Shown: piece by piece, positions 11,782 to 24,413 of the stretch
How positions within the stretch are numbered: the first letter of the stretch is position 1
Layout of the letters: each line of letters starts with the position of its first letter
Source: Chloroflexota bacterium
GTDB taxonomy: Bacteria; Chloroflexota; Limnocylindria; P2-11E
Length of the DNA stretch: 35,306 nucleotides
Direction: 5' to 3'
Assembly: GCA_016183435.1 (NCBI GenBank)
Contig: JACPEQ010000046.1
Location: 1-35,306 of the forward strand
The notes under the pieces: generated by a model
What the model was told of the DNA's origin: nothing
Databases searched by the model: none
What the model saw: only the letters and a program-made list of their open reading frames with translations
Translations under genes and position numbers: made by a program

Positions 11782-12353
11782 GGAGGAGGGGAAGGCGCCG
11801 GAGGGGTCCCAAGCGACCCGCCGTCAGGGCCCTCAGGACGCGGGAAGCACCGTAAACGCCGATCTCTCCTGGCGACCAGAGCGTTGGGTCACATTCGGGG
11901 CGACCGAACGGCCGCCGAGGAGGTGCCATCAGCGATCCGCGGATGGACCGCACACGTCCACGAACACGAGCACCCCGTCCACCAGGGCGCGCCCGTCTGA
12001 GAAGGAGACCGACCAAGAAAGGCCCGAGCGATCTGTCGCCGCTCCGAGATGGTGTCTGACTTCGCATCTCGGTCGGTGGGACCGGCCCTTGATACCGTCT
12101 CCGGCCGTCTTTGATGCCGTCCCCAAGGCCGATCCTCGTTGATGGGATCTCCGTTCGACCGGCCTCTTGACAGACCCCTCGGGTCGGTGACCCACGCTAC
12201 GACGGGCTCGTTCGCTGTGGAAGGGTCGAACGTCCCCGCCGTGACCGACCTGATGCCGGGGATCGAAGCGGATCGTGGATAACTGCTGCCGACCGACGCG
12301 GGAGGTTCGACCCTGTCCATCCTCGCGTGTCCGCATGAGACTCGCTGGTGCGC
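11782..12353. other. Large intergenic region, first copy of the repeat element inside
   Basis: No frame in this stretch looks like protein: the listed ORFs have runs of Arg/Gly/Pro and no recognisable fold. It contains repeat element copy A (12001-12186), one TTATCCACG site on the minus strand at 12274-12282, and weaker GTCCAC-type matches near 11955-11980. I see no tRNA: the GGTTCGACCC near 12304 lacks a pairing T stem. Confidence 0.5.
12001..12186. repeat. Intergenic repeat element, copy A
   Basis: This stretch matches 21500-21700. Both begin GAAGGAG, then share CCCGAGCGAYCTG (12023 and 21524), then carry the iterated TTGAT-N4-TCTC-like motif (12088-12104, 12109-12124, 12137-12153) and finish with the identical CAGACCCCTCGGGTCG (12171-12186). 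Ungapped comparison of 12081-12124 with 21583-21626 gives 34 of 44 matches by eye, with most differences being transitions. The last part folds as GACCC-CTC-GGGTC. No transposase or terminal repeats accompany it. Confidence 0.7.
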
Positions 12354-17336: not shown

Positions 17337-18986
<1,650 letters not shown>

Positions 18987-20187: not shown

Positions 20188-20906
20188 GGCGGGGCGATCC
20201 TCGACTGCATGACGACGGGCCCCTCTCGCTTGCCGGTCGACGACGTCTCGACGGTCACCGCGCAGCGCTCGAATCCGGCGAGCTCCTGACCGATCTCGAC
20301 CATCTGGATGCGCTCGGCGTCGGGTCGGAAGCTCGCGCCGCGGACCCACTTGCCGTCGGGGGCGATGAGCCAGAGCGCGTAGAGCTGCCCCTGATCCAGC
20401 GGCCGCAGGTCGTGGAAGACCACGAAGGCGGGCTTGCCCGACGCCGGCTGCATGAGGTTGCCGCCCGAACCCTTCCACTGATCGACGCCGGCCATGTACC
20501 AGGTGCGTCCGCCGAGGGCGACGTTGGCCAGGCCGCGCTCGTACTCGTCCCGCTCCGCCTGGACCGCCTGGAGCCGCAGCGTCTGGTTCGCGTCGAACCC
20601 GAGCAGGAGCACGATCGCGGCGGCCATCGCGAGCATCCGCGGATCGAGCGGGATGCGCGGCAGGCGCACCGCCCGCCGCTGCCGGCGCACATCCTCCGCG
20701 GCCGCCGCGAGGATGCGGTCCTTCAGGTCGGCCGGAGGCTCGCGGAGCGGGACCGTATCGGCGAGGGCCGCGACGACCTCGGCGATCTCGCCCGCGGCCG
20801 CGCGGCACGAGGCGCAGCCCCGCAGGTGGGCGGCGACGGCGTCGCTCCGATCGGCGGGCAGCGCCCCGACCGCGTACAGCTCGAGGTCGTCGAGGACATG
20901 GGTCAT
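20178..20906 (-). CDS. RskA-type transmembrane anti-sigma factor
   Basis: A 242-residue membrane protein expected to hold the partner ECF sigma factor inactive. The N-terminal cytoplasmic zinc-binding anti-sigma domain shows H-x3-C-x2-C (AHLRGCASC, about residues 27-34). A single membrane helix lies near residues 91-105. The extracytoplasmic part has the RskA pattern, including ANVALGGRTWYMAG, LRPLDQGQLYALWLI and GFERCAVTVETS. In this family the signal is sensed outside and the anti-sigma factor is destroyed by regulated proteolysis. The start ATG overlaps the sigma gene stop as ATGA (20903-20906), which fits balanced synthesis of the pair. Confidence 0.9.
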   Translation of the reverse strand: MTHVLDDLELYAVGALPADRSDAVAAHLRGCASCRAAAGEIAEVVAALADTVPLREPPADLKDRILAAAAEDVRRQRRAVRLPRIPLDPRMLAMAAAIVLLLGFDANQTLRLQAVQAERDEYERGLANVALGGRTWYMAGVDQWKGSGGNLMQPASGKPAFVVFHDLRPLDQGQLYALWLIAPDGKWVRGASFRPDAERIQMVEIGQELAGFERCAVTVETSSTGKREGPVVMQSRIAPPSQ

Positions 20907-21451
20907 CGGACCGCTCCGAGGACGCGCCGCATCTTCTGCAGGCCGATGCGCATCCGGCCCTTCACCGTCCCGAGGGGCACTCCCATGAGCTCGGCCAGCT
21001 CGGACTGGGTGTACCCGCCGAAGTACGCGAGCTCGATGGTCCGGCGCTGGGCCTCGGGAAGGGTCTCGAGCGCCGCGCGGACGGAGCCGCGCTCGACGTT
21101 GCGGGCGGCCTCCTCCGCGGTGTCGAGCTCCGAGGCCGTGTGGTCGGCGGCTTCCAGCGGGGCCGGGCGGAAGGCGGTGCGCCGGCGCAGCACGTCGACC
21201 GCCCGGTGGTGGACGATCGACAGGAGCCAGCTCCGGACGTTGCCGCGCTCGCGCCGGAACGTCCCGGCGCCGCGCCAGGCGGCCAGGAACGCGTCCTGGA
21301 CGACGTCCTCGGCGGCCTCCGGCTCGCCGAGGATGCGGTAGGCGAGCGTGTACGACACGCGGCCGTAGCGGTCGTAGAGGCCGCTCAGCGCCGACAGATC
21401 ACGCGCAGCCAGCGCCTCGGCGAGGACGTTGTCGTCCCGCTCGACCGTCAT
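20903..21451 (-). CDS. ECF sigma factor (SigK-like, sigma-70 family)
   Basis: A 182-residue group 4 sigma factor. Region 2 is visible as LYDRYGRVSYTLAYRIL and DVVQDAFLAAWRGAGTF (about residues 25-68), with RSWLLSIVHHRAVDVLRRR following. Region 4 carries the helix-turn-helix YTQSELAELMGVPLGTVKGRMR near residues 150-171. The adjacent anti-sigma gene of RskA type supports a SigK-like envelope-stress or redox-type circuit. TACCCT lies seven bases before ATG 21451 and may be the -10 of a leaderless message. No typical ECF AAC -35 stands out upstream, so autoregulation is not evident. The target regulon is unknown. Confidence 0.93.
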   Translation of the reverse strand: MTVERDDNVLAEALAARDLSALSGLYDRYGRVSYTLAYRILGEPEAAEDVVQDAFLAAWRGAGTFRRERGNVRSWLLSIVHHRAVDVLRRRTAFRPAPLEAADHTASELDTAEEAARNVERGSVRAALETLPEAQRRTIELAYFGGYTQSELAELMGVPLGTVKGRMRIGLQKMRRVLGAVR

Positions 21452-21499
21452 CTACGGAAGGGTACGGAGGGGGCCTTGCTCTGGATGAAAAAGGGGAGG

Positions 21500-21700
21500 G
21501 AAGGAGGTCGGAAAAAGAAGCGACCCGAGCGACCTGCTTCCGGTCCCAGCCACTGCTTCGAAGACAGTGTCCGGGTCGTGGAGCCGGTCCTCGATACCCT
21601 CTCGGACCGCCTTTGATGCTATCTCCGGTTGCGCTCCCAGGACCTGGCCCTTGATAGGATCTCGGGCCCTGCCGATCCCTTTAGCAGACCCCTCGGGTCG
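21500..21700. repeat. Intergenic repeat element, copy B
   Basis: Second copy of the element at 12001-12186. It has GAAGGAG, CCCGAGCGACCTG (21524-21536), motif units at 21590-21605, 21611-21628 and 21650-21666, and the terminal CAGACCCCTCGGGTCG (21685-21700), identical over 16 bases to copy A. The interval between the first two TTGAT/TCGAT cores is 22 bp in both copies; later intervals differ by 2 and 10 bp. A further unit, CTTGAGGCGATCTCGG, lies at 21968-21983. Confidence 0.7.
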
Positions 21701-21740
21701 CGCTGAAACATACGGTCCCACCCATGGCCCAACAAGCGCT

Positions 21741-22110
21741 TTTTCCACGATCTCGATCGGCGTGACGTCATCCGTGTCCACCGATCCCCGCAGTTATCCA
21801 CGCGGATCGAACAGCGCTGTGGACAGCAGTGTCTTTCGTCCCCACCGCGCGCAGACCGAGGCCCGCAGGACGAGGTCGAGCACGGTGTCGCGAGGAGGGC
21901 TTTGGCCCGACCGAGCGTCGGACAAAAGCAAACATCCCGAGCGACGACCGACCGACGGATCACGCACCTTGAGGCGATCTCGGTAGCGCTCCCCCGGGCG
22001 GCCCCCTCTCGGGACGGTCGCGAACTTTAGTCCCGCTCAACGGAAGGCCGCGAGCCGTTCATCCACGATCCGACGTGCCGGATATCCACCAGTTCGGCGA
22101 GTTATCCACC
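21741..22110. promoter_or_regulatory. Cluster of seven DnaA-box-like sites
   Basis: Matches to TTATCCACA or its TTGTCCACA variant: TTTTCCACG (21741), GTGTCCACC (21774), TTATCCACG (21794, one mismatch), CTGTCCACA on the minus strand (21818-21826, one mismatch to TTGTCCACA), TCATCCACG (22059), ATATCCACC (22082) and TTATCCACC (22102, one mismatch). Such density in 370 bp suits DnaA binding: an origin, a DnaA-titration site or DnaA control of pcrA. There is no dnaA, dnaN, rpmH or parAB nearby, so an origin is not established. Confidence 0.45.
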
Positions 22111-22130
22111 GAAGCCTGCGCCCCTACCAT
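22102..22130 (+). promoter_or_regulatory. Putative pcrA promoter overlapping a DnaA-box-like site
   Basis: TACCAT (22125-22130) lies six bases before GTG 22137, giving a leaderless layout. The hexamer 17 bp upstream (22102-22107, TTATCC) is a poor -35 and is the first part of the TTATCCACC box, so DnaA binding there would touch RNA polymerase. Confidence 0.4.
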
Positions 22131-22136
22131 CGACGA

Positions 22137-24413
22137 GTGTCCGACCCGATCCTCGACGTCCTGAACGAAGAGCAGCGTCGGGCGGTCGCCCACGGCACGG
22201 GCCCCTTGCTCATCCTCGCCGGCGCAGGGTCGGGCAAGACCCGCGTCCTGACGCACCGGATCGCGTACTTGCTGCGCGACCTGAACGTCCCGCCGCGCGC
22301 GATCCTGGCCGTCACCTTCACGAACAAGGCCGCTCGCGAGATGCGCGAGCGGCTCGCGCGCCTGGTGCCTGCGGCCGCCCTGGCGGAGCTGACGGTCGGT
22401 ACCTTCCACGCCTTCTGCGCGCGCCTCCTTCGGCGGCACGCCCGGGCGGTCGGCATCGAGCCGAGCTTCGCCATCTACGACGAGGCGGACCAGCGCGCGC
22501 TGCTCCGCCGGGCGATGGAGGACGCCGGGCTCGGCGAGCGCCTCGTGCCGCCCGGCGCGATCTCAGCGACGATCTCGAACGCGAAGAACGAGCTGCGGGG
22601 CCCCGCCGACCTGGCCGGCGGCGCGCGCGGGCAGCTCGAGCGCGTGACGGCGATCGTCTGGCCGCGCTACGAGGCGCTGCTGCGCGAGAACAACGCCCTC
22701 GATTTCGACGATCTGCTGCTGTTCGCGGTGCGGCTCTTCGAGACCGACGACGACGCGCTGAACCTGTGGCAGGACCGCTTCGACCACATCCTCGTCGACG
22801 AATACCAGGACACGAACCGCGCTCAGTACGTGCTCCTCCGGTACCTCAGCGGCTGGAAGCAGAACCTCGCCGTGGTGGGCGACGACGATCAGTCGGTCTT
22901 CTCGTGGCGCGGCGCGGACCTGCGCAACATCCTCGACTTCGAGCGCGACTTCCCCAAGACCTCGGTCGTGAAGCTCGAGCAGAACTACCGCAGCACACAG
23001 CGCATCCTCGACGCGGCGCACTCGATCGTCCGGAACAACGCGTCCCGCACGGAGAAGCGCCTCTGGACCGATCGCAGCGGGGGTGAGGACGTCGTCATCA
23101 TCGAGGCGTACGACGAGCGCCACGAGGCCCAGCTCATCGCGCGCGAGATCGAGCAGCTGCGGCGCGAAGGCGAGGCCAAGGCGCCGCGCGACGTCGCGAT
23201 CCTCTATCGCACGAACGCGCAGTCACGGGCGATCGAGGACGCGTTCCGCGAGTTCGGTCTCGCCTACCAGGTGGTCGGCGGCGTCTCGTTCTACGAGCGG
23301 CGCGAGGTCAAGGACGTGCTCGCGTACCTCCGTCTCGTGCGGAACCCGCAGGACACCGTGGCGCTCGGCCGCGTCGTGAACGTGCCGCCGCGGGGGATCG
23401 GTCCGAAGACGCAGGCCGCGCTGCTGGCCGCTGCGCGCGAGCGCGGAGTGCCGGTGGCCGACGCGCTCCGCGACGCGGACGCGATCGCCACCGTCCCGCA
23501 GCGGCAGCGCTCCGCCCTCGCGTCGTTCGGCCGGATCGTCGCGGAGGTGCGCGCCGCGGTGGAGGAGCGCGACCTGCCGGAGATCGTCGACCTCCTCCTC
23601 GACCGCTCCGGGTACGCCGCGTACCTGCGCGACGGCACGCAGGAGGGAGAGGAGCGGTTCGCGAACGTGCTCGAGCTCCACAGCATCGCCGAGGAGTTCG
23701 TGCGGCTGCCGCGCGACGAGCAGCTCCCCGCGTTCCTCGAGGACGTCGCGCTCGTCTCCGACCAGGACCAGTACGAGGAGGCCAAGCCCGCGGCGACGCT
23801 CATCACGCTGCATGCGGTGAAGGGACTGGAGTTCCCGATCGTGTTCCTCACCGGCATGGAGGAAGGCGTCTTCCCGCACGTGCGGTCGCTCGAGGAGGAG
23901 GCCGAGCTCGAGGAGGAGCGGCGGCTCTGCTACGTCGGCGTCACCCGCGCGATGCACCGCTGCTATCTCACCTGGGCGCGGCAGCGGATGCTGTTCGGCC
24001 GCACGTCGTCGAACCCCCCGTCCCGGTTCCTGCGCGAGCTGCCGCACGAAGGCGTGGAGCGGCGCAGCAGCGGCGAGGCCGAGGAGCGCGACGTGTGGGC
24101 GGAGCTCGACGACGAGGCCGTGCGCGCGAGATACGAGGATCGGCGCGCGGCTCGCCGCCGGAGCGCGCTCGAGGGGCTGCCGTCCCGGTGGAGCGGCGAG
24201 CGGAGCGGCGACGGCCGCCGCGCCGCGGACGCGGTCCGCCCGGCGGAGGCTGCGCGCTTTCGCGCGGGGCAGAAAGTGCGGCACCCCACGTTCGGCGAAG
24301 GCATCGTCGTCTCGAGCGCGGTCCGCGCCGACGACGAGGAGGTGACCGTCGCGTTCCCGCGGAAGGGCGTGAAGAAGCTGATGGCCGCCTTCGCGGATCT
24401 CCGGCCCCTCTGA
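22137..24413 (+). CDS. pcrA: ATP-dependent DNA helicase PcrA/UvrD (superfamily 1)
   Basis: A 758-residue 3'-5' helicase for repair, replication restart and clearing of proteins from DNA. All SF1 motifs are visible: Q-motif LNEEQRRAV, Walker A AGAGSGKT (about residues 28-36), Ia VTFTNKAAREM, Ib GTFHAFCARLLRR, Walker B VDEYQDTN (about 219-226), III VGDDDQSVFSWRGA, IV LEQNYRST, V LHAVKGLEFPIVFLTGMEEGVFPH and VI RRLCYVGVTRAM. The C-terminus has the PcrA Tudor-like module VRHPTFGEGIVVSS that binds RNA polymerase. Start is GTG 22137. It lies next to the DnaA-box-like cluster and, one gene further, ligA. Confidence 0.95.
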   Translation: MSDPILDVLNEEQRRAVAHGTGPLLILAGAGSGKTRVLTHRIAYLLRDLNVPPRAILAVTFTNKAAREMRERLARLVPAAALAELTVGTFHAFCARLLRRHARAVGIEPSFAIYDEADQRALLRRAMEDAGLGERLVPPGAISATISNAKNELRGPADLAGGARGQLERVTAIVWPRYEALLRENNALDFDDLLLFAVRLFETDDDALNLWQDRFDHILVDEYQDTNRAQYVLLRYLSGWKQNLAVVGDDDQSVFSWRGADLRNILDFERDFPKTSVVKLEQNYRSTQRILDAAHSIVRNNASRTEKRLWTDRSGGEDVVIIEAYDERHEAQLIAREIEQLRREGEAKAPRDVAILYRTNAQSRAIEDAFREFGLAYQVVGGVSFYERREVKDVLAYLRLVRNPQDTVALGRVVNVPPRGIGPKTQAALLAAARERGVPVADALRDADAIATVPQRQRSALASFGRIVAEVRAAVEERDLPEIVDLLLDRSGYAAYLRDGTQEGEERFANVLELHSIAEEFVRLPRDEQLPAFLEDVALVSDQDQYEEAKPAATLITLHAVKGLEFPIVFLTGMEEGVFPHVRSLEEEAELEEERRLCYVGVTRAMHRCYLTWARQRMLFGRTSSNPPSRFLRELPHEGVERRSSGEAEERDVWAELDDEAVRARYEDRRAARRRSALEGLPSRWSGERSGDGRRAADAVRPAEAARFRAGQKVRHPTFGEGIVVSSAVRADDEEVTVAFPRKGVKKLMAAFADLRPL

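Follow-up and report, generated by a model that had tools for sequence, protein, structure and literature searches.

Does the dense group of DnaA-box-like sites between an ECF sigma factor gene and pcrA in a Chloroflexota genome mark a replication origin, a locus that titrates DnaA, or a regulatory region? The window analysed here, i.e. the whole stretch of 35,306 nucleotides, belongs to a 2.22-Mb draft genome (G000; 198 contigs, 90.1% complete). A preliminary description had listed seven 9-mers with one to three changes from TTATCCACA/TTGTCCACA at positions 21741-22110. All seven were found, each with a perfect TCCAC core (7/7) and one or two mismatches, three of them with a single mismatch as described (B3, B4 and C3 in Table 1), and the additional site mentioned beside a repeat copy, copy A, is likewise present. 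To evaluate the clustering, we used 60 dinucleotide-preserving shuffles of the whole 35-kb window and scored the best 370-bp stretch. The observed 3 sites with ≤1 mismatch, 8 sites with ≤2 mismatches and 7 TCCAC cores per 370 bp exceeded the shuffle maxima of 2, 6 and 5, respectively, in agreement with the earlier assertion that such clustering is unexpected by chance. The number of ≤1-mismatch sites in the entire window (6) was mildly unusual (shuffle mean 2.24; 6 reached in 5/100 shuffles). The DNA had also been called less GC-rich, which holds to the extent that the ~900 bp upstream of pcrA contain 66% GC vs ~70% for the window, a mild contrast.

No dnaA had been seen near the cluster, and indeed none was found in the window or in the entire draft assembly. 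A search of 41 genomes located dnaA in 39, among them the four other members of the genus, and the likeliest explanation for its absence here is a gap in the draft assembly. In the relatives that were read, a box triplet with 21/20-bp steps lies just downstream of dnaA (dnaN was read there in L012). The perfect box TTATCCACA, common at dnaA-dnaN of relatives, is absent from the whole 2.22-Mb draft (0 occurrences vs 3 for the backwards pattern). Based on the dnaA-dnaN box triplets, which constitute a standard oriC in relatives, we rejected the origin option of the preliminary description. Dense intergenic DnaA-type boxes in a draft without dnaA might suggest a chromosomal or second origin, but many relatives with boxes upstream of pcrA also carry the dnaA-dnaN oriC, no GC-skew switch is evident within the 35-kb window, and outside the families f1/f2 the boxes recur at other loci, in several copies, together with the RNA described below; an origin at this place is scarcely credible. 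The cluster resembles oriC in its degenerate box consensus and in the 20-bp steps B2-B3 and C2-C3, and differs from it in that no dnaA or dnaN is present, in that the boxes precede RNA promoters with steps of 31-33, 42 and 53 bp, and in that several such loci occur per genome.

Alignment of 24 pcrA upstream regions, the window's included, revealed an element of ~190 bp with ~30 bases identical in nearly all of them. Read on the minus strand, this element (RNA B) comprises a 17-bp closing helix, three hairpin modules, a further hairpin and a T-rich 3' end, each module consisting of a stem followed by GA facing AA and, after that, GAU-nnn-AUC. Covariation demonstrated the structure: two-sided compensatory changes occur at 17 of 56 consensus pairs (shuffle mean 6.1), 98.9% of alignment cells are paired, and 0/500 shuffles scored as high on any of five measures, while the pairing signal collapsed when partner columns were slid by 1-3. 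The minus strand folded better than the plus strand for RNA B (-92.0 vs -77.6 kcal/mol; z -4.1 vs -2.8) and also for a second, shorter element, RNA C (-52.0 vs -32.8 kcal/mol). As the promoter hexamers also lie on the minus strand, transcription of the plus strand was rejected. Short-type copies such as C were folded singly, RNAalifold performing poorly on the gapped alignment A2. Searching Rfam 15 gave 0 gathering-score matches across the window, and a relaxed search of 21450-22140 returned only a weak, chance-level miRNA match. On the basis of their sequences, B and C are members of an RNA family without Rfam match and thus a candidate new family. What had been described as copy A of a repeat is a paralogue of the same RNA. 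The module TTGATRSSATCTC shared by copies A, B and C (≤1 mismatch) was found in these three elements, all in the window, and nowhere else in the draft, and the 8-mer TTATCCAC occurs five times in the 2.22-Mb draft, three of them in the window, one each beside RNA copies A, B and C. The fifth occurrence (L150, G000:C27:17786) lies between genes that by eye are HD-domain-like and sigma-factor-like and adjoins a TTGACA-type promoter-like sequence. In one relative (G013; L038/L128, C79), RNA B lacks its 3' half and the DNA continues into the sigma gene, by natural deletion or assembly error.

Table 1. Features of the locus in window coordinates; mismatches are those to the DnaA-box consensus.
Feature	Position	Strand	Supporting observation
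Structured non-coding RNA gene B, about 190 nt	21511..21702	-	kept in 23 relatives; covariation; R1 201.9 bits
Short paralogue RNA C, about 95 nt, one module	21923..22018	-	R1 20 bits; R2 45.8 bits; element also in G001, G004
Diverged paralogue RNA A, without phased boxes or clear promoter	12010..12188	-	R1 86.4 bits, E 1.8e-26 in window
Promoter B -10, TATGTT	21707..21712	-	TAnnnT at same distance in 22/23 f1/f2 copies, null mean 0.18
Promoter B -35, TTGTTG	21730..21735	-	CAA column invariant in alignment
Box B1 TTTTCCACG (2 mismatches), proximal box of promoter B	21741..21749	+	GTGGA at -47 to -45 in 23/23 f1/f2 copies
Box B2 GTGTCCACC (2 mismatches), 33 bp from B1	21774..21782	+	33-bp spacing in 16 f1/f2 copies
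Box B3 TTATCCACG (1 mismatch), 53 bp from B1, 20 bp from B2	21794..21802	+	53-bp spacing in 12 f1/f2 copies
Box B4 CTGTCCACA (1 mismatch), reverse orientation	21818..21826	-	CTGTGG(A)-like motif at same place in G002, G001
Promoter C -10-like TAAAGT	22024..22029	-	same place: TAGTGT in G001, TACAGT in G004
Box C1 TCATCCACG (2 mismatches), proximal box of promoter C	22059..22067	+	TCGTGGATGA upstream of C in G001 too
Box C2 ATATCCACC (2 mismatches)	22082..22090	+	site match
Box C3 TTATCCACC (1 mismatch), 20 bp from C2, 26 bp before pcrA start	22102..22110	+	site match
TTATCCACG beside copy A, orientation relative to RNA opposite to B boxes	12274..12282	-	site match
pcrA/uvrD helicase gene, divergent from RNAs B and C	22137..24413	+	UvrD_C, UvrD-helicase and PcrA tudor domains
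ECF sigma factor gene, downstream of RNA B here	20903..21451	-	Sigma70 r2 and r4 domains

The spread of the RNA was evaluated with two covariance models, R1 built from B and the short-type model R2 built from 24 sequences, C among them; neither model contains the boxes. R1 detected relatives in 55 of 151 genomes of the class. R2, run over 400 genomes of the phylum, matched in 36 class genomes and in one genome outside the class (G192), where the match is weak, 41 nt long and resembles a plain hairpin. Many class genomes carry 2-4 dispersed copies, and single copies contain one (75-95 nt), two (~115 nt), three (B type) or four modules (229 nt). Searching for the exact core of B yielded 24 GTDB contigs, each with the label Chloroflexi or Chloroflexota, and 0 viral contigs. 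Given this absence from viral contigs and the constant place upstream of pcrA in all f1/f2 loci read, a mobile element is unlikely. The family is class-wide, the class probably being Ca. Limnocylindria, for which 2.39 Mbp and 68.9% GC have been described (PMC10608941). Literature searches, which covered open-access papers, brought up neither this RNA nor any Chloroflexota RNA genes under the control of DnaA boxes. Copies of the A type (copy A of the window and L118-L123) keep the fold and lack the phased boxes. In six further genomes (G106, G124, G140, G110, G115, G083; L267-L273), the standard promoter and closing stem are followed by much longer RNAs that branch differently, with GAGCAATC-type modules.

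What precedes the RNA proved as regular as the RNA itself. A standard promoter and terminator scan at strict thresholds returned nothing, and it was conservation that revealed the promoter instead. Among copies collected via the RNA model alone, TTG-N17/18-TAnnnT is found in 61/80 f3/f4 and 22/23 f1/f2 copies (null means 0.46 and 0.18). In regular copies, the -35 TTG is preceded, at a distance of a few bases, by a box that reads GTGGATAA along the RNA. G[T/G]GGA lies at -53 to -36 in 80/80 scored f3/f4 copies, 63 of them with GTGGA (shuffled mean 1.4, max 6), and GTGGA lies at about -47 in 23/23 B-type f1/f2 copies (null mean 0.5, max 3). The R2 match L206, with neither boxes nor promoter, was excluded by hand, so that the stricter count for the proximal box is 80/81; L138, L144, L148, L236 and L238 were also excluded, as matches judged to be fragmentary, internal or spurious, to lie outside the class or to abut a contig end. 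Within the 140 bp upstream, cores totalled 242 in f3/f4 copies (null 23, max 36) and 82 in f1/f2 copies (null 6.8, max 15). Measured from the proximal box, the spacing to the next boxes peaks at 31-33, 42 and 52-54 bp, i.e. approximately 3, 4 and 5 turns of DNA. Since the nulls come from mononucleotide shuffling within each sequence and the copies share ancestry, these counts do not represent independent events, and the recurrence at unrelated loci and in several families is the stronger point.

The association was also approached from the promoter side. A pattern of two boxes plus TTG, devoid of any RNA information, matched in 53 of the 151 class genomes, while the reversed control pattern gave 0 matches among the same 151; in 30/30 promoter-pattern loci read (by stem pattern and by eye), the closing stem of the RNA lies 37-40 nt after the TTG. 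As judged from these comparisons, box architecture and RNA are tightly associated both ways, and a DnaA-box consensus stands at the RNA promoters, as in a DnaA-regulated promoter. The regulatory option of the preliminary description is thus strongly supported, for two minus-strand structured RNA genes that had not been seen at the time. A main role of the boxes for pcrA was rejected because the box-RNA unit sits at other loci outside f1/f2; a side effect on pcrA is possible.

Two other readings of the locus bear on this architecture. In the window, the sigma gene follows RNA B on the same strand, and B might accordingly be a 5' leader or riboswitch of that gene, with the boxes belonging to the sigma gene promoter. 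We consider this very improbable: a long helix joins the two ends of the RNA and is followed by a T-rich stretch, the downstream sequence differs in some relatives, and the copies of G029 are surrounded by unrelated genes. Neighbouring genes vary from copy to copy (UPRTase, lactate/malate dehydrogenase, CbiQ, an FAD-binding protein and a MoaA-like protein), which argues against a role in cis. Alternatively, the boxes might mainly titrate DnaA or alter its nucleotide state, their proximity to RNA promoters being secondary. E. coli datA and DARS are box clusters in intergenic DNA outside the origin, and in this the boxes of the window are alike; they differ in being tied to the promoters of an RNA family. 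That dense boxes are scattered over several loci of a genome would suit titration, but the positions of the boxes are fixed relative to -35 and -10 and helix-phased at many unrelated loci, which is not what pure titration needs, and we regard this reading as improbable, although some titration may occur as a side effect.

We thus propose, with a probability of roughly 0.65, that the boxes are upstream control elements of promoters B and C, at which DnaA binds and probably activates the RNA family. From sequence, DnaA is the best candidate for the binder, at odds of about two to one or better. The boxes at the RNA promoters and those at dnaA-dnaN of the clade have a common degenerate consensus, TTNTCCACN, which includes TTATCCACG. 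GGRDHSTVLH is present in the DnaA of the genus, which can be aligned with DnaA proteins of solved structure. Upstream of dnaB, a triplet ATGTCCACA, TCATCCACA, TTATCCACG with 21/20-bp steps is present in the genome of the window, G004 and G001 (L154 / L310-L312, L314), and G002 retains two of these three boxes. In several relatives, the dnaB match is split at residue ~390 by an intein-like open frame of ~1 kb (L314, L315, L323-L325, L334), and many genomes carry a second dnaB-like gene in tandem.

Some observations do not fit binding by DnaA equally well. The A-type copies are without the architecture, boxes and promoter are both lacking at L206, promoter C has a degenerate -35, and the draft does not include the DnaA of the window genome itself. 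In 17/80 f3/f4 copies, the proximal box reads TTATCCCC, a less favourable site for DnaA. DnaA usually regulates several genes, but at the stringency of the pattern the architecture seems dedicated to the RNA (30/30), to which a specialised regulator would also fit. These last two points equally favour a dedicated transcription factor that binds the GTGGATAA boxes, the site merely resembling a DnaA box. Against such a factor, the sites have consensus and position-9 variation in common with the oriC boxes of the clade, and steps of 20-21 bp are seen at oriC, in the triplet before dnaB and again between B2 and B3. We therefore judge a dedicated factor rather unlikely, though worth keeping in mind.

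In the reading that we propose, promoters B and C would drive small structured RNAs away from pcrA, each with a GC-rich closing helix around one to four hairpin modules. DnaA would occupy the boxes on one face of the DNA beside RNA polymerase and control, probably activate, transcription, so that RNA output would be tied to the level or nucleotide state of DnaA. A precedent is sda of B. subtilis, which DnaA activates (PMC4447404). DnaA-type boxes at the promoter are common to both systems; unlike at sda, the targets here are multi-copy structured RNA genes, the boxes are fixed and helix-phased class-wide, and DnaA is a putative binder and activator.

The RNA itself may act by binding a protein through its modules, as their repetition, near-identity and variable number suggest binding of a protein or ligand. 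Protein-sequestering RNAs of the CsrB/RsmZ type similarly contain a variable number of near-identical hairpin modules, although the module here consists of GA/AA and GAU-nnn-AUC instead of GGA loops, and has no Rfam match. The family resembles bacterial 6S RNA in being structured, in a length that reaches ~190 nt and in its long closing helix, but it is multi-branched, 75-229 nt long with 1-4 repeated modules, and often present in several copies per genome; its range of sizes, its branching and the number of copies speak against a 6S-like role. RF00013 (6S RNA) matched in 0/41 genomes, which is weak evidence as the model matched in only 5/14 control genomes. More tentatively, DnaA may class-wide be a dedicated regulator of a multi-copy RNA whose level is set by replication-initiation potential and whose function would be new, perhaps protein binding via the GAU-nnn-AUC modules with feedback on replication or growth.

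In place of an odd origin, the locus thus presents a promoter whose geometry is fixed class-wide, together with an RNA family that Rfam 15 does not contain, and the promoter rule is exact enough for direct testing. If DnaA binds, this would be, to our knowledge, the first known multi-copy structured RNA family in which DnaA boxes define the promoters, and their phasing to the helix would offer a clean system for studying contact between DnaA and RNA polymerase; if another factor binds, the pair would still be a dedicated regulator and its RNA in an uncultured, widespread group. Elsewhere in the window, a gene of the Cpn60/TCP-1 chaperonin family (17349-18986) lies within a strongly AT-skewed stretch.
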